This document shows positions 14,242 to 20,551 of a stretch of 64,000 nt of DNA, piece after piece. The notes under the pieces were generated by a model. It was given only the letters and a program-made list of their open reading frames with translations. It did not search any database and had not been told where the DNA came from. Source of the stretch: Flavobacterium sp. SUN046. GTDB taxonomy: Bacteria; Bacteroidota; Bacteroidia; Flavobacteriales; Flavobacteriaceae. Numbering within the stretch: position 1 is the stretch's first letter; every line of letters starts with the position of its first letter. The translations under genes and the position numbers were made by a program. The DNA lies in the NCBI RefSeq assembly GCF_028867965.1, contig NZ_JAPQNT010000003.1, forward strand, positions 124,001-188,000. Direction: 5' to 3'.

Positions 14242-15288
14242 TTATTCTTCCAAAGCATTCCAACCGCGCGCTTTTAGAGGGATTTTTGTATTCGCTCTAG
14301 TTATCAAATGAACGCCTTCGCTTTCGCCAACAATGTGACCAATTACAGTAAAATTTGGATTGGCTTTTATTTTGTCAAAATCTTCCATTGCAATGGTAAA
14401 TAGTAATTCATAATCTTCACCACCATTTATAGCAACAGTTGTCAAGTCGATATTAAACTCTTCACATACATTTATAAACTGCGGATCAACCGGAATTTTC
14501 TCTTCATATAAATTACAACCGACTTTACTTTGCTTACAAATATGAATAATTTCTGAAGATAATCCGTCAGAAATATCAATCATTGAAGTTGGTTTTAAAT
14601 CTAATTTTGATAATAAATCTTTAATATCATGACGCGCTTCTGGACGTAATTGTCTTTCTATCAAATAAGTATAAGTATCCAAATCAGGTTGATTATTTGG
14701 GTTTACTTGAAATACTTGTTTCTCGCGTTCCAAAACTTGCAATCCCATATAAGCAGAACCTAAATCGCCAGAAACTACTAATAAATCTCCTTCTTTAGCA
14801 CCGTTTCTGTAAACAATTTCGTCTTCATTTGCTTCGCCAATGGCAGTAATTGAAATGATTAAACCTTTTTGTGATGAAGTTGTATCGCCACCAATTACAT
14901 CAACATTATAGAATTTTGATGCTAATGTAATTCCGTCAAATAATTCTTCCAAAGCTTCCAACGGAAAACGATTCGACACTGCAACAGAAACTGTAATTTG
15001 AGTCGCTTTTGCATTCATCGCACAAATATCAGAAACATTTACAACAACGGCTTTGTAACCCAAATGACGCAAAGGCATATACGACAAATCAAAATGTACA
15101 CCTTCAATTAATAAATCGGTAGAAATTACTACTTTTTTGTCTTTGAAATCTAAGACAGCCGCATCATCGCCAATACTTTTTAGTGTTGAAGCATTTTTTA
15201 CATCAAAGTTTTTGGTCAAATGTTCAATTAATCCGAATTCGCCTAATTGTGAAAGTGCTGTTCGTTGTGGGTTTTTGTCTTCTATCAT
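14242..15288 (-). CDS. thiL: Thiamine-monophosphate kinase
   Basis: A 348-residue ThiL, which phosphorylates thiamine monophosphate to thiamine diphosphate, the cofactor form. PurM-like motifs are present: SIGDDAAVLDF (Mg/ATP binding), STDLLIEGVHFDLSY, GGDTTSS, VSGDLGSAYMG and DISDGLSSEI. The start is placed at the ATG at 15288; an upstream in-frame start at 15336 would add residues encoded by a dispersed repeat. It is divergent from the PfkB gene. Confidence 0.95.
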   Translation of the reverse strand: MIEDKNPQRTALSQLGEFGLIEHLTKNFDVKNASTLKSIGDDAAVLDFKDKKVVISTDLLIEGVHFDLSYMPLRHLGYKAVVVNVSDICAMNAKATQITVSVAVSNRFPLEALEELFDGITLASKFYNVDVIGGDTTSSQKGLIISITAIGEANEDEIVYRNGAKEGDLLVVSGDLGSAYMGLQVLEREKQVFQVNPNNQPDLDTYTYLIERQLRPEARHDIKDLLSKLDLKPTSMIDISDGLSSEIIHICKQSKVGCNLYEEKIPVDPQFINVCEEFNIDLTTVAINGGEDYELLFTIAMEDFDKIKANPNFTVIGHIVGESEGVHLITRANTKIPLKARGWNALEE

Positions 15289-15305
15289 GGCGCAAAGGTA
15301 CGAAG

Positions 15306-15348
15306 TTTTTTTGCCACAGATTACACTGATTTTCACAGAATTTTTGCA
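15306..15348. repeat. Dispersed intergenic repeat, family A (copy 2)
   Basis: Near-identical to the reverse complement of 737-780. It fills most of the space between thiL and the divergent sugar kinase and covers an upstream in-frame start of thiL, which supports the start chosen there. Confidence 0.6.
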
Positions 15349-15372
15349 TCTTTATGGTTGTAAATAAATTTT

Positions 15373-16299
15373 ATGAAAAACAATAAAATTACGACCTTAA
15401 CTATAAATCCGTCTTTAGACAAATCAACTCATTTTTCAGGATTGGTTGCTGAACAAAAAATGCGTTGCGAAAAACCGCGTTATGATGCTGGCGGTGGCGG
15501 AATAAATGTATCTAAAGCTATTGCCAAATTAGGTGGAAAATCGACTTGTATTTTTACTTCTGGTGGTTCTTCTGGCGAAATGTTGGAAGAATTGGTTGCT
15601 AATAAAAAACTCGAAAGCATCGTAATTAAAACCAAAAATTGGACGAGAGAAAACTTTATAGCCTTTGAAAATAATTCTAAATCACAATACCGATTTGGTT
15701 TTCCAGGAAATGAATTTTCAGAAGATGAAAAAGATAAAATTCTGCAAACGATAAAAGATTTACAAACCGATTATTTAGTAATCAGTGGAAGTTTGAATGA
15801 AGGATTGCCATCAAATTTCTATCAAAAAATAGCTAAAATTGCAAAAGAATCCAACATTAAAGTAATTGTTGATACGTCAGGCGAAGCGTTGCAAAAAGTA
15901 CTAGAAACTGGCGTTTATTTAATCAAACCCAATATTGGTGAATTAGCAAAATTAATTGGTGTCGATAGATTAGAATTGCCAGAAGTAGAAAAGGCAGCAC
16001 AAAAACTCATCGAAAATAAAAGTGCTGAAATTGTAGTAGTTTCACTCGGAGCAGAAGGCGCAATTTTAGTTTCTAAAGAAGAAACCCATTTTATAAAAGC
16101 ACCAAAAGTAGAAAATAAAAGTACCGTTGGCGCAGGCGATAGTATGGTTGGCGGAATGGTTTGGGCATTATCACAAAACAAATCATTGAAAGAAGTAATC
16201 CAAATGGGCGTTTGTTGTGGAACTGCAGCAACTATGAATGAAGGAACGCAACTTTTTAAGGCAGAAGATGTAGAGAATTTATTTTCGAACATGAAATAA
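15373..16299 (+). CDS. pfkB: PfkB-family hexose kinase (1-phosphofructokinase/Pfk-2-like)
   Basis: A 308-residue ribokinase-fold kinase of the 1-phosphofructokinase/6-phosphofructokinase-2 group. The N-terminus reads TLTINPSLDKS, the substrate loop GGGGINVSKA and the C-terminal ATP/catalytic signature VGAGDSMVGG. It should phosphorylate a sugar phosphate (fructose-6-phosphate or fructose-1-phosphate, or tagatose-6-phosphate) in the cytoplasm. The next gene starts 37 bp downstream on the same strand, so it may be co-transcribed with the Lgt-like/radical SAM pair. A functional link is not evident. Confidence 0.88.
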   Translation: MKNNKITTLTINPSLDKSTHFSGLVAEQKMRCEKPRYDAGGGGINVSKAIAKLGGKSTCIFTSGGSSGEMLEELVANKKLESIVIKTKNWTRENFIAFENNSKSQYRFGFPGNEFSEDEKDKILQTIKDLQTDYLVISGSLNEGLPSNFYQKIAKIAKESNIKVIVDTSGEALQKVLETGVYLIKPNIGELAKLIGVDRLELPEVEKAAQKLIENKSAEIVVVSLGAEGAILVSKEETHFIKAPKVENKSTVGAGDSMVGGMVWALSQNKSLKEVIQMGVCCGTAATMNEGTQLFKAEDVENLFSNMK

Positions 16300-16336
16300 A
16301 TTTATCAGTACTTTTATAGTAAATAAAATTATTCAA

Positions 16337-17077
16337 ATGAATATTCCTTTTGAGCCAATTATTTTTAATTACAAAATTAATATTCATTTAGTTCTTGAAT
16401 ATTTGGCTTTTTTTCTTGCGTTTAGGTATTATGTTTTTTTAAGGAAAAATTCTGTCGATTTGATTCCAAAAACAAATAGACTTTCTATTATTTTAGGAGC
16501 AACTTTAGGTGCATTTTTAGGTTCTAGAATCATGGCTGTTCTTGAAAATCCAGTATTTATTACAGATATTTCTTCGATAATTACAATTTTAAACTCCAAA
16601 ACAATTATGGGCGGTTTGTTTGGAGGACTTCTTGGAGTTGAACTTGCCAAAAAAATAATTGGCGAAAAACAATCATCTGGAGATTTATTCGTTTTTCCAA
16701 TAATACTCGGAATTTTCATAGGAAGAATAGGTTGCTTCCTATCCGGTGTCAAAGAGTTTACTTACGGAAAAGAAACTACTTTTTTTCTAGGAATGAACCT
16801 TGGCGATGGTTTAAAAAGACATCCAATTGCTTTGTACGAACTGATTTTTCTAATAATCTTATTTTATTTTTTACGGAATTTAAAAAAGAGGAATTTAAAA
16901 AACGGATTATTATTTCAATATTTCATGATTTGTTACTTTGCATTTCGATTTTGCATTGAATTTCTAAAACCTAATTTGTTTTTTGTTTTCGGATTGAGTT
17001 CTATTCAAATTTTATGTCTAATTTGCTTACTTTATTATTACAAAACAATTTTAAAATTATTTAAAAATGCCAGTTAG
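16337..17077 (+). CDS. Divergent Lgt-like (prolipoprotein diacylglyceryl transferase family) membrane protein
   Basis: A 246-residue integral membrane protein with about seven hydrophobic segments. It keeps two Lgt marks, GRIG (Arg130) and RHPIALYE (161-168). The rest of the signature is altered: the usual GRxGNFxNxE reads GRIGCFLSGVK (Asn to Cys133, Asn to Ser136, the Glu position not acidic), and the essential His of the FHGG loop appears missing (GGLFGGLLG). It is therefore probably not the housekeeping lipoprotein enzyme, though it may still move a diacylglyceryl or similar lipid group. Its last 11 bp overlap the radical SAM gene, which implies translational coupling. Confidence 0.75.
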   Translation: MNIPFEPIIFNYKINIHLVLEYLAFFLAFRYYVFLRKNSVDLIPKTNRLSIILGATLGAFLGSRIMAVLENPVFITDISSIITILNSKTIMGGLFGGLLGVELAKKIIGEKQSSGDLFVFPIILGIFIGRIGCFLSGVKEFTYGKETTFFLGMNLGDGLKRHPIALYELIFLIILFYFLRNLKKRNLKNGLLFQYFMICYFAFRFCIEFLKPNLFFVFGLSSIQILCLICLLYYYKTILKLFKNAS

Positions 17078-18464
17078 AAAATATACATATTACGATTTTA
17101 CTTTAAGCCTTTGTCCCGAATGTTTAAAGCGAATTGACGCCAAAATTGTTTTTGAAGATGATAAAGTTTTCATGTTAAAACGTTGTCCCGATCACGGAAA
17201 TTCTAAGGTGTTGATTGCCGATGATATTCCGTATTATAAAAATATTAGAAACTACAATAAACCTTCTGAAACTCCTTATAAATTCAATACAAAAACCGAT
17301 TATGGTTGTCCGTATGATTGCGGATTGTGTCCAGATCATGAGCAACATTCGTGCTTAACAGTTATTGAGGTTACCGATAGATGCAATTTAACTTGCCCAA
17401 CTTGTTATGCAGGTTCATCACCAACTTATGGACGACATAGAACCTTAGAAGAAGTAAAAACCATGTTGGATACTATTGTTGAAAACGAAAAAGAACCAGA
17501 TGTTGTACAAATAAGTGGTGGCGAACCAACTATTCATCCACAGTTTTTCGAAATTTTAGATTATGCTAAAACACTTCCGATACGGCATTTAATGTTAAAT
17601 ACAAATGGAATCAAAATTGCAAAAGACATTGAGTTTGCCAAAAAATTAAAATCGTATTCACCAGATTTTGAAATTTATCTGCAATTTGATTCCTTTGAAA
17701 ATAGCGTTTTACAAGAACTTCGTGGTGCCGATTTGTGGGAAATTAGAAAACAAGCGATTGAAAATTTAAATGAAATTAATCTATCAACAACATTGGTCGT
17801 TACTTTGCAAAAAGGTTTAAATGACAATGAAATCGGTAAAATAATTGAGTTTGCTTTAAAGCAAAAGTGTATTCGTGGAGTTACATTTCAACCAACACAA
17901 ATTGCTGGAAGATTAGAAAATTTCAATCCAGAAACCGATAGGATGACTTTGACGGAAGTTCGTAGAAAAATTTTAGAACAAACTTCCATTTTTAATTCAG
18001 ACGATTTACTTCCAGTTCCTTGTAATCCAGATGCTTTGGTTATGGGATATGCTTTAAAATTGGACAACGAAGTTTTTCCTTTAACACGTTATATAAATCC
18101 AAATGATTTATTGGATAATAGTAAAAATACAATCATTTATGAACAAGATTTGCACCTTCAAGAGAAAATGATTGAACTTTTTAGCACTGGAAATTCCGTT
18201 GAAGTTGCAGAAGAAAATTTAAAATCAATACTATGTTGCTTGCCAAATATTGATGCGCCAAATTTAGGATATGATAATTTATTTAGAATTATTATCATGC
18301 AATTTATTGATGCTTATAATTTTGATGTTCGAGCTATTAAAAAATCGTGTGTTCATATTATCAATAAAGACAACAAAATAATTCCTTTCGAAACTATGAA
18401 TTTATTTTATAGAGATGATAAATTAGCAAGATTAAAAGAATTACAAAACGAAATAAAATTTTAA
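17067..18464 (+). CDS. Radical SAM protein of the MJ0619/tetraether synthase (Tes) type
   Basis: A 465-residue radical SAM enzyme with a distinctive cysteine pattern: a zinc-ribbon- or rubredoxin-like N-terminus (Cys16, Cys19, Cys40), a first CX3CX2C (Cys81, Cys85, Cys88), Cys96, then the canonical CX3CX2C (Cys106, Cys110, Cys113). ISGGEPTIHP provides the SAM-binding GGE motif. Two CX3CX2C motifs in this arrangement characterise the MJ0619 family: class D methylases that modify methanopterin, and archaeal tetraether lipid synthase, which couples lipid tails. In a flavobacterium neither archaeal substrate is expected. The overlapping Lgt-like gene points to a lipid or lipoprotein substrate at the membrane. 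Family confidence is high; the reaction is inferred. Confidence 0.88.
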   Translation: MPVRKYTYYDFTLSLCPECLKRIDAKIVFEDDKVFMLKRCPDHGNSKVLIADDIPYYKNIRNYNKPSETPYKFNTKTDYGCPYDCGLCPDHEQHSCLTVIEVTDRCNLTCPTCYAGSSPTYGRHRTLEEVKTMLDTIVENEKEPDVVQISGGEPTIHPQFFEILDYAKTLPIRHLMLNTNGIKIAKDIEFAKKLKSYSPDFEIYLQFDSFENSVLQELRGADLWEIRKQAIENLNEINLSTTLVVTLQKGLNDNEIGKIIEFALKQKCIRGVTFQPTQIAGRLENFNPETDRMTLTEVRRKILEQTSIFNSDDLLPVPCNPDALVMGYALKLDNEVFPLTRYINPNDLLDNSKNTIIYEQDLHLQEKMIELFSTGNSVEVAEENLKSILCCLPNIDAPNLGYDNLFRIIIMQFIDAYNFDVRAIKKSCVHIINKDNKIIPFETMNLFYRDDKLARLKELQNEIKF

Positions 18465-18468
18465 AATC

Positions 18469-18666
18469 ATGATAGCATTAGAAGGAGGAAATTACGATGG
18501 TTTATTTTTATTAATTATTTTAATAATGTTTGGACCACCAATTCTGTTAAGCATTATTGGATTTAGTGTAAGAAAAACTAATAAACAAGCTTCTTTAGTT
18601 TTATTTATTTTAGCTGGGTTGTACTTAATTATTGGATTGGGAATTTGTGGAGGAATGTTTGTTTAA
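18469..18666 (+). CDS. Small membrane protein, third gene of the Lgt-like/radical SAM unit
   Basis: A 65-residue protein with two strong membrane helices (LFLLIILIMFGPPILLSIIGF and the C-terminal LVLFILAGLYLIIGLGI) joined by a short basic loop. It starts 4 bp after the radical SAM stop codon, so it is very likely co-transcribed. I recognise no family. It could be an accessory subunit or membrane anchor for the radical SAM protein. Confidence 0.65.
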   Translation: MIALEGGNYDGLFLLIILIMFGPPILLSIIGFSVRKTNKQASLVLFILAGLYLIIGLGICGGMFV

Positions 18667-18668
18667 AA

Positions 18669-18702
18669 AAACCCAACAACTTTCGCCATCGGGTTTGTTT
18701 TT
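18669..18702 (+). terminator. Weak rho-independent terminator
   Basis: AAACCC (18669-18674) can pair with GGGTTT (18691-18696) across a 16-nt loop, followed by a T-rich run. It lies directly after the small membrane protein gene. Confidence 0.45.
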
Positions 18703-18709
18703 ACTTGAT

Positions 18710-18733
18710 GTCATCCTGAGCTTGTCGAAGGAC
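18710..18733. repeat. REP-like palindrome
   Basis: TCATCCTGAGCTTGTCGAAGGA, an imperfect dyad (TCCT/AGGA arms). This word is widely dispersed between genes in Bacteroidota genomes. Only one copy is seen here. Confidence 0.5.
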
Positions 18734-18754
18734 TTTTATGTTACTAATTAATTA

Positions 18755-20551
18755 TTAATCATTCAACTTCAACACAGCCATAAATGCTTCTTGCGGAATT
18801 TCAACATTTCCTACCAATCGCATTCTTTTTTTACCTTTTTTCTGTTTTTCAAGAAGTTTACGTTTTCTCGAAATATCACCACCATAACATTTTGCGGTAA
18901 CGTCTTTACGTAAAGCTTTTATCGTTTCACGAGCAATGATTTTAGCTCCAATTGCAGCTTGAATTGGAATATCAAATTGTTGTCTTGGTATTAATTCACG
19001 CAATTTTTCACACATTTTTTTACCAATATTATACGCATTACTTTCATGAATTAAAGCCGAAAGTGCATCAACCGATTGTGCGTTTAACAACACATCTAAT
19101 TTTACCAATTTCGATTCTTTCATTCCAATTGGTGTGTAATCAAATGAGGCATAACCTTTAGAAACCGTTTTCAATCGATCATAAAAATCGAATACTATTT
19201 CTGCTAAAGGCATATCAAATGTTAGCTCCACTCGTTCTGTAGTCAAGTACGTTTGATTGGTAATTACACCACGTTTTTCGATACACAAACTCATTACATT
19301 TCCAACATAATCGGCTTTTGTAATAATAGTTGCTTTTATAAATGGTTCTTCAACGCGGTCTAATTTTGATGGTTCTGGTAAATCCGATGGATTATTAATT
19401 ACAAACGAAACTTCTGGTTCTTTTTTGGTATAAGCCAAATACGAAACGTTGGGAACAGTTGTAATTACTGTCATATCATATTCGCGTTCCAATCGTTCTT
19501 GGATAATTTCCAAGTGCAACATTCCTAAAAATCCGCAACGGAAACCAAATCCTAAAGCAGCAGAACTTTCGGGAGCAAATACTAGTGAAGCATCGTTCAA
19601 TTGTAATTTTTCCATCGAAGCACGCAAATCTTCATAATCTTCTGTATCAACAGGATAAATTCCGGCGAAAACCATTGGTTTTACATCTTCAAATCCTTTA
19701 ATCATATTAGTAGTTGGCGTTTTTGCATCGGTAACGGTATCACCAACTTTTACTTCTTTAGCTTCTTTAATTCCAGAAATCAGATAACCAACATCACCAG
19801 TAGAAATTACGTTTTTCGGAACTTGATTTAATTTCAGAGTTCCAACTTCATCAGCAAAATATTCATTTCCAGTTGCCATGAATTTTATTTTCTGACCTTT
19901 TTTTATTTCTCCGTTTTTCACACGAAAAATTACTTCAATTCCACGAAACGGATTGTAATGTGAATCGAAAATCAAAGCTTGTAGAGGCTCGTCTTTTACG
20001 CCTTTTGGATGCGGAATTTTTTCGATTATAGCTGCTAAAATATTTTCAACACCAAAACCAGTTTTACCCGAAGCGTGAATAATATCTTCCAATTTACAAC
20101 CTAATAAATCGATAATATCGTCGCTAACTTCTTCCGGATTAGCACTTGGTAAATCTACTTTATTCAAAACTGGAATAATTTCCAAATCATTTTCTAAAGC
20201 TAAATATAAATTTGAAATCGTTTGTGCCTGAATACTTTGCGCGGCATCAACAATCAAAAGCGCGCCTTCGCAAGCTGCAATTGAACGAGAAACTTCATAC
20301 GAAAAATCGACATGTCCAGGAGTATCAATAAGATTCAGAATGTATTCTTCACCTTTGTACGTATATTCCATTTGGATAGCGTGACTTTTTATGGTAATTC
20401 CACGCTCGCGTTCCAAATCCATATTATCAAGCAATTGCGCTTTTTCTTCACGTGCAGTAACGGTTTGTGTGGCACCAAGAAGTCTATCCGCAAGTGTACT
20501 TTTTCCGTGATCAATATGTGCAATAATGCAAAAATTTCTTATGTGTTTCAT
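18755..20551 (-). CDS. lepA: Elongation factor 4 (LepA)
   Basis: A 598-residue translational GTPase that back-translocates stalled ribosomes and aids 30S assembly. The G domain shows [25 protein letters not shown] and NKVDLP. The LepA-specific C-terminal domain follows ([47 protein letters not shown]). The length is normal. It is monocistronic by position. Confidence 0.97.

Follow-up and report, generated by a model that had tools for sequence, protein, structure and literature searches.

A conserved bacterial operon of an Lgt relative, a GDGT-MAS-like radical SAM enzyme and a small membrane protein looks like an undescribed route for modifying membrane lipids or a lipid-carrying protein

The window analysed here, a stretch of 64,000 nucleotides from Flavobacterium sp. 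SUN046, carries a compact three-gene unit that encodes a divergent relative of the diacylglyceryl transferase Lgt, a radical SAM enzyme resembling GDGT-MAS and a small membrane protein. The genes, called as open reading frames (ORFs) and, for the first two, by Pfam matches (LGT and Radical_SAM), are as follows.

16337..17077, + strand: divergent Lgt-family integral membrane protein, 246 amino acids (aa)
17067..18464, + strand: MJ0619/GDGT-MAS-like radical SAM enzyme, 465 aa
18469..18666, + strand: two-helix membrane protein, 65 aa, C-terminal end ...LIIGLGICGGMFV

The ORF calls agree with the layout given in a first-pass annotation of the same letters: the first two genes overlap by 11 bp, a gap of 4 bp precedes the third, and the third product has 65 residues.

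The three genes are one evolutionary unit, co-inherited across bacterial phyla. The unit is separate from the housekeeping lgt, as it is from archaeal tetraether synthase (Tes) and the radical SAM (seleno)protein TrsS. A tree of 145 radical SAM proteins contains one clade of 113, with a support value of 96 in the Shimodaira–Hasegawa-like approximate likelihood ratio test (SH-aLRT). The tree was made by a quick method with SH-aLRT support only, a midpoint root and a long-branch warning, after identical sequences and ORFs under 380 aa had been dropped. Within the clade, 103 members have an Lgt gene nearby (on the same strand, within 5 kb), seven lie at contig ends and three are true exceptions, L067, L068 and L158, whose genomes hold a divergent Lgt elsewhere (81.9, 70.2 and 65.6 bits). 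A divergent Lgt was also found in four of the seven contig-end genomes (G789, G790, G791 and G795). The 104th tree row with a nearby Lgt, L083, sits on a long branch outside the clade; 63 of the 104 Lgt genes are within 100 bp of the radical SAM gene and five lie beyond 1.5 kb. Distances between the radical SAM proteins correlate with those between their Lgt partners (Spearman 0.80 over 66 pairs, a value that none of 1000 shuffles reached).

In a set of 36 loci the Lgt-like gene is present in the stretch at 32, and two of the four without it (L062 and L082) fall outside the clade. Among the best 80 of 568 confirmed candidates, picked by radical SAM similarity and not by Lgt, 72 loci have the gene; of the remaining eight, seven are cut off by the end of the stretch within 320 bp of the radical SAM gene and one is L158. 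Of 33 loci around archaeal and clostridial hits, four are clade members with Lgt and the other 29 have none; the archaeal loci outside the clade showed no same-strand Lgt in the fetched stretch. The adjacency flagged in the first-pass annotation is kept across Bacteroidota genera and in other phyla, and is not peculiar to this strain. Host titles among the best 80 include Flavobacterium, Hymenobacter, Mucilaginibacter, Paenibacillus, Brevibacillus, Cylindrospermum and Ktedonosporobacter, and there are metagenome-assembled genomes (MAGs) of Acidobacteria, Spirochaetia, Elusimicrobia, Actinobacteria, Desulfobulbaceae and others. These names are record titles, and the archaeal and Patescibacteria records are MAGs in which misbinning is possible. 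We note that two archaeal-genome records (L165/L276 and L275, from a sample of the phylum of the L165 archaeon) carry the Lgt–radical SAM pair, with the same caution; the L165 genome has no LGT match besides the linked one.

Whole genomes were also searched. Of 60 near genomes, counting the window's own, six carry the radical SAM gene (E below 1e-90), and a divergent Lgt (73.7–87.1 bits over nearly the whole model) occurs in exactly those six, each of which also has a canonical lgt. The chance of this is about 2e-8 under independence, a figure that treats the genomes as independent, which relatives are not. G002 has a further 73.4-bit LGT match to model positions 137–239 only, with a second match to 1–167 elsewhere; we read these as a split canonical lgt. 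A second set covers 51 genomes from the genus to which L127 (titled Paenibacillus harenae) belongs: 17 of them carry the radical SAM gene, and exactly the same 17 a divergent Lgt (76.8–101 bits, as two fragments in G751); two further genomes of this set have LGT matches under the cut-off, at 23.7 and 21.8 bits. In a sample of the phylum the radical SAM gene occurs in 34 of 395 genomes (E 1e-40 or better), thus the module is optional and patchy.

These counts bear on the alternative that the Lgt-like protein is an ordinary second Lgt which lipidates normal lipoproteins under some condition, with the radical SAM gene as a passenger. The protein is a PF01790 member above the Pfam cut-off, and in three genomes the top LGT match comes from another Lgt branch without the histidine H103, as described below. 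Against this, the 111 genomes of the two sets contain no above-cut-off divergent Lgt without the radical SAM gene, and extra above-cut-off lgt copies in genomes free of that gene score as canonical ones do, except for pieces of one gene. Passenger status is held unlikely because of the co-occurrence in both sets, and we regard the alternative as a whole as highly improbable.

The unit comes in two forms. Type 1, as in the window, runs Lgt, radical SAM, small protein; type 2, read in two loci (L061:8947-12546 and L081:3435-6938), runs radical SAM, ICMT-like methyltransferase, DUF4395 protein, Lgt, small protein. The Lgt gene is downstream of the radical SAM gene, as in type 2, for 21 of 108 linked Lgts. 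We had at one point called the second form TrsS-like and dropped the name, since two members of the Lgt-free clostridial group proved to be true TrsS (692.6 and 704.6 bits).

The Lgt-like protein exceeds the cut-off of Pfam LGT (PF01790; 87.6 bits against 24.9), falls below that of the lgt equivalog TIGR00544 (48.3 bits against 118.9) and matches the Lgt fold in a single-chain structure prediction. Two stretches of codons matter here.

16724..16735, + strand: Arg130 (R143 of E. coli Lgt) to Cys133 (N146), from the alignment of linked Lgt-like proteins
16946..16948, + strand: Arg204 (R239 of E. coli Lgt), kept in 108 of 108

For E. coli Lgt (PDB 5AZB), the excerpted text of PMC4728403 reports that H103 and E151 are each essential, their mutants being inactive, that every tested R143 and R239 mutant is inactive, and that a second lipid pocket includes R143, E202, Y235 and R239. 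The linked proteins keep these pocket residues: the R143 equivalent, like that of R239, is present in 108/108, the E202 equivalent in 106/108 and the Y235 equivalent in 107/108. Unlike the E. coli enzyme, none of the 108 has H103, the histidine of the HGGL/FHGG motif (Met91 in the window), or an E151 equivalent, and N146 is missing from 106, where cysteine takes its place; L115 and L116 retain Asn. The first-pass annotation had reported loss of the signature Asn and Glu, and probable loss of the FHGG His; the window protein indeed has Cys133 and Val138 at the first two, and the loss of the His is certain. Fixed instead are Cys133 (106/108), Lys105 (108/108) and Asp157 (106/108). Asn is present in 31 of 31 canonical Lgts, a result of selection because that set, drawn entirely from the window's relatives, was picked by a pattern containing the Asn and the His.

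The same annotation had argued from residue loss that this should not be the housekeeping enzyme. The conclusion stands on other ground, as LGT matches two genes in this genome of 3.37 Mb (36 contigs), a canonical lgt (G000:C34:198790-199650, E 2.4e-55) and the one described here (E 1.6e-24). Of 16 genomes reached through named loci, 15 likewise contain an LGT gene scoring above the linked one, in two of them (G459 and G460) at only middling best scores of 114.6 and 121.4 bits; a MAG titled Candidatus Thalassarchaeaceae archaeon lacks one. We rejected residue loss itself as proof of lost Lgt activity: four other Lgt-family proteins (L290, L292, L293 and L294) also lack H103 and N146, and in three genomes (G788, G092 and G792) a protein of this kind is the best-scoring LGT match. 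The proteins of those three genomes (L292, L293 and L294; 306–405 aa) carry GLAFFGG or GLTFYGG and GR[VI]GC..SGDGDWG, and may be functional Lgts whose active site differs.

The small protein reached no family cut-off. Its fixed point is a cysteine where the last helix is presumed to end on the outer side; it was located by comparison of small ORFs.

18646..18648, + strand: codon of Cys60

Small membrane ORFs lie directly downstream at 97 loci, and in 94 of them a cysteine follows a hydrophobic stretch. It is within 25 residues of the end in 88 of these 97 ORFs against 333 of 1681 background small membrane ORFs, a background that includes the operon's own. A stricter rule applied to the whole operon span finds a small protein with a terminal Cys at 91 of 118 loci (85 of 105 with full flanks), against 3/118 on the opposite strand and 3/204 in far flanks; the 118 loci include some regions twice and give 114 distinct radical SAM sequences. 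Outside the clade the rule finds two among 33 rows, one being L083, which has Lgt. The rest of the sequence drifts fast, and the terminal Cys stays fixed. Positions −3 to −1 before it are mostly [FLN]-[GAS]-[AITS] (72, 88 and 73 of 94), and Lys or Arg precedes the last helix in 91 of 94. The positive-inside rule would therefore place the Cys on the outer face of the membrane. A lipoprotein signal peptide similarly has a positively charged loop and a hydrophobic helix ahead of its cysteine. The small gene is downstream, between the Lgt and radical SAM genes (L073, L085, L093, L095 and L116) or upstream of Lgt (L129, L136, L163 and L168), and one enzyme pair can be accompanied by several small ORFs in tandem, three of them in L115 and two each in L080, L076 and L132. 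Such tandem copies fit a substrate better than a subunit. At L115:6522-7840 the three consecutive small membrane ORFs, each with its own Cys-motif end, stand between the Lgt and radical SAM genes.

The radical SAM enzyme scores 96.5 bits against Pfam Radical_SAM and 72.6 bits against the HMPTM zinc ribbon. Its nearest solved structure by sequence is GDGT-MAS (E 2.4e-73; the next is at 4.7e-06), and the single-chain prediction matches that fold, rubredoxin site, N-terminal cluster site and radical SAM core alike; a structural comparison with Tes had been proposed in the first-pass annotation. The metal sites are as follows.

17112..17195, + strand: rubredoxin-like site C16-X2-C19-X20-C40-X2-H43, from the alignment, with GDGT-MAS spacing
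17307..17330, + strand: auxiliary cluster Cys81/85/88 (the N-terminal [4Fe-4S] in GDGT-MAS), in 113/113 clade rows (92 type 1, 21 type 2)
17382..17405, + strand: radical SAM cluster Cys106/110/113, in 113/113 clade rows
18021..18350, + strand: C-terminal Cys319, Cys390/391 and Cys428, from the clade alignment

The two CX3CX2C motifs and the N-terminal metal ribbon were recognised in the first reading of the letters, and both motifs prove to be invariant across the Lgt-linked clade. The spacing of the rubredoxin-like site is identical to C9X2C12X20C33X2H36 of GDGT-MAS (excerpted text of PMC9433317); its cysteines are present in 113 of 113 clade rows and His43 in 106, with Cys in the other seven. 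At the C-terminus, Cys319 is found in 113/113 and Cys428 in 111/113 clade rows, and Cys390 together with Cys391 in 92/92 of type 1; the latter pair is not among the letters listed for type 2. These would be candidate ligands of a third cluster, in an arrangement unlike that of Tes.

MJ0619, to which the first-pass annotation had assigned methanopterin methylation, is identified in later work as GDGT-MAS, the tetraether synthase (PMC9433317, in the part available), and the methylation role found no corroboration there. The window enzyme shares the fold of Tes/GDGT-MAS (PDB 7TOL/7TOM) and scores 301.9 bits with the Tes model (NF045702), under its cut-off of 450. Cys319 is in none of ten archaeal Tes-side rows, and the window enzyme has no counterpart of the Cys that archaeal enzymes have in their PFC motif; its C-terminal cluster therefore probably has another arrangement than that of Tes. 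The ten rows include three under the Tes cut-off (L279, L280 and L281), and the N-terminal auxiliary cysteines align in only four to six of them. Tyr459 of Tes, a Tyr in nine of the ten, is Ile431 in the window, Ile in 87/92 of type 1 and Ile or Val in 19/21 of type 2; the replacement is not decisive because Y459F/L of GDGT-MAS retain activity (PMC9433317, same excerpt). The catalytic architecture of Mss, a bacterial membrane-spanning lipid synthase, is the same as that of Tes in the excerpted description of PMC13274423. The Tes cut-off is exceeded in 38 of 77 genomes of the phylum of the L165 archaeon. In the control genome of Thermotoga maritima, a diabolic-acid maker, there was no Tes-model match at E 1e-30.

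The GDGT-MAS fold raises the alternative of a pathway for lipids alone: the radical SAM enzyme would couple two phospholipid tails and the Lgt-like protein would exchange or remodel the head or glycerol portion, yielding a new lipid, membrane-spanning or otherwise modified, with the small protein as a subunit or lipid presenter whose Cys is structural or redox-active. According to the available text of PMC9433317, GDGT-MAS as isolated from E. coli contained lipids consistent with E. coli phospholipids, and its reaction goes via a bond between a tail carbon and a cluster sulfur; the synthesis of membrane-spanning lipids has been proposed for bacterial Tes homologues (PMC8941075, in part). The fixed last-helix Cys of a fast-changing small protein, and the tandem copies, are left unexplained by this pathway. 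To our knowledge no membrane-spanning lipid has been reported from Flavobacterium, Paenibacillus or cyanobacteria, and a search of the Flavobacterium lipidome literature gave none for Flavobacterium. We consider a lipid-only pathway rather unlikely.

TrsS (NF045646) is the best-scoring curated family for the enzyme, at 340.7 bits against a cut-off of 490. In PMC13188914 TrsS figures as a table entry. Cys96 of the window enzyme recurs in 14 of 14 rows of an Lgt-free clade; two clostridial proteins of this clade (L255 and L257) are verified TrsS, and verification in that group covers these two members. The L255 operon has a DVU_1556 methyltransferase and a DVU_1555 protein and no Lgt, whereas seven neighbours in the window gave no match to either model. 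No TrsS match over the cut-off was found in the 395 genomes of the phylum sample. By eye, the clostridial Lgt-free operons L253, L255 and L257 have XdhC-like and MobA-like genes and look like molybdenum-enzyme maturation. One branch of the family would thus work in a soluble setting. A further alternative follows the same line: the radical SAM enzyme would modify the small protein itself, by RiPP-like chemistry (as in ribosomally synthesised and post-translationally modified peptides) or a thioether at or near Cys60, or would act on another protein or cofactor, with the Lgt-like protein binding the product or anchoring it to the membrane. TrsS may act in this way, and its verified genes lie in the operons just described; a small gene beside the radical SAM gene, at times in tandem, also fits. 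We judge such a target unlikely.

Lipid-directed chemistry is the most economical reading because the unit joins the fold of a lipid-tail coupler, the fold of a diacylglyceryl transferase with its lipid-binding arginines and an outer-face cysteine. The operon would then be an inner-membrane lipid-modification module. On the cytosolic face the radical SAM enzyme would generate a 5′-deoxyadenosyl radical, which would activate an unreactive carbon of a phospholipid acyl tail for C–C coupling or another radical change. At the outer face the Lgt-like protein would transfer the diacylglyceryl part of the altered lipid onto the Cys60 thiol; a diacylglyceryl group is suggested because the two arginines that Lgt needs for lipid are kept. 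The product would be a tiny uncleaved membrane protein bearing an unusual lipid, and in type 2 operons the ICMT-like membrane methyltransferase and the DUF4395 protein may finish or tune it. As the Lgt site and the Cys would be outside and the radical SAM enzyme presumably inside, the order most consistent with topology would be alteration first, then flipping and transfer. We favour this transfer of a modified diacylglyceryl lipid onto Cys60 as plausible, if somewhat short of probable. The wider proposal, of a second kind of protein lipidation without cleavage, in which a dedicated Lgt paralogue attaches a tail-altered or coupled diacylglyceryl lipid to an outward-facing last-helix Cys of a tiny membrane protein and so gives mesophiles of many phyla a protein-anchored unusual lipid that may span the membrane, is possible but fairly doubtful. 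The first-pass annotation had spoken of a lipid-modifying module: the three-gene unit is real and the folds match, and its lipid chemistry is the conjectural part.

Several observations weigh against transfer to Cys60. The strict rule gives no small ORF at 27 of the 118 loci, seven with a contig end within 700 bp and 20 with full flanks; a looser list has near misses for several of these, and four (L123, L133, L165 and L170) have none even there. A lipobox reads [LVI][ASTVI][GAS]C after a signal peptide near the N-terminus. The window small protein has L-G-I-C near its C-terminus, with Ile at −1, and departs from the bacterial-lipoprotein pattern, so any likeness to a lipobox is loose. H103, which E. 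coli Lgt needs, is missing from every linked Lgt-like protein, and in its C-terminal cysteines the radical SAM enzyme departs from the Tes-side rows. The enzyme scores higher with TrsS than with Tes. The genome search found no divergent Lgt in three of the seven contig-end genomes (MAGs G792, G793 and G794). The lipid would presumably have to flip between the radical step and the transfer, and the lipid, the product and the lipidated peptide are all deduced here from genes.

Both enzymes are of known structural kinds and neither reaches a named-function cut-off; what seems new is their pairing with each other and the small protein. A literature search for the Lgt–radical SAM pairing found no description (most subscription journals lay outside its coverage), and one on COG1964 found nothing relevant. 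In the excerpted text of PMC9433317, the authors of the GDGT-MAS structure note homologues in bacteria not known for such lipids and leave their reactions open; that of PMC8941075 describes the retrieval of 456 bacterial Tes homologues and hypothesises a role for them in the synthesis of branched glycerol dialkyl glycerol tetraethers. One large bacterial branch of the GDGT-MAS family has a fixed Lgt-relative partner and a small membrane protein with one conserved Cys, which turns that question into a defined operon with a candidate acceptor residue. Its cultured hosts include Flavobacterium and Paenibacillus. Where surveys take bacterial Tes homologues as a sign of membrane-spanning lipid synthesis, members of this separate system may be among those counted.

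Flanking ORFs of at least 90 aa within 5 kb were clustered, and the 14 largest clusters considered. The radical SAM gene leads (114 loci), followed by Lgt (104) and a DUF4395-like cluster (22; labelled from one example); the next clusters, named by eye, hold an ABC-type ATPase (18), LepA (17), small proteins of Bacillota and cyanobacteria (16) and a dehydrogenase-like gene (15). ICMT has no cluster of its own among the 14 and was found in L061 and L081. In the window a hexose kinase gene (15373-16299; TIGR03168, 302.4 bits) on the same strand ends 37 bp upstream of the Lgt-like gene and is not among the largest conserved neighbour clusters; lepA (966.4 bits) lies downstream, facing the module. 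No RNA element reached its gathering score in 15000-20000 and no terminator-like site was found in 16200-18800, where promoter-like sites number 19 against 14.6 (sd 3.9) in shuffles. Right after the operon, at 18710-18732, GTCATCCTGAGCTTGTCGAAGGA resembles a repeat element and has two exact copies in the genome.

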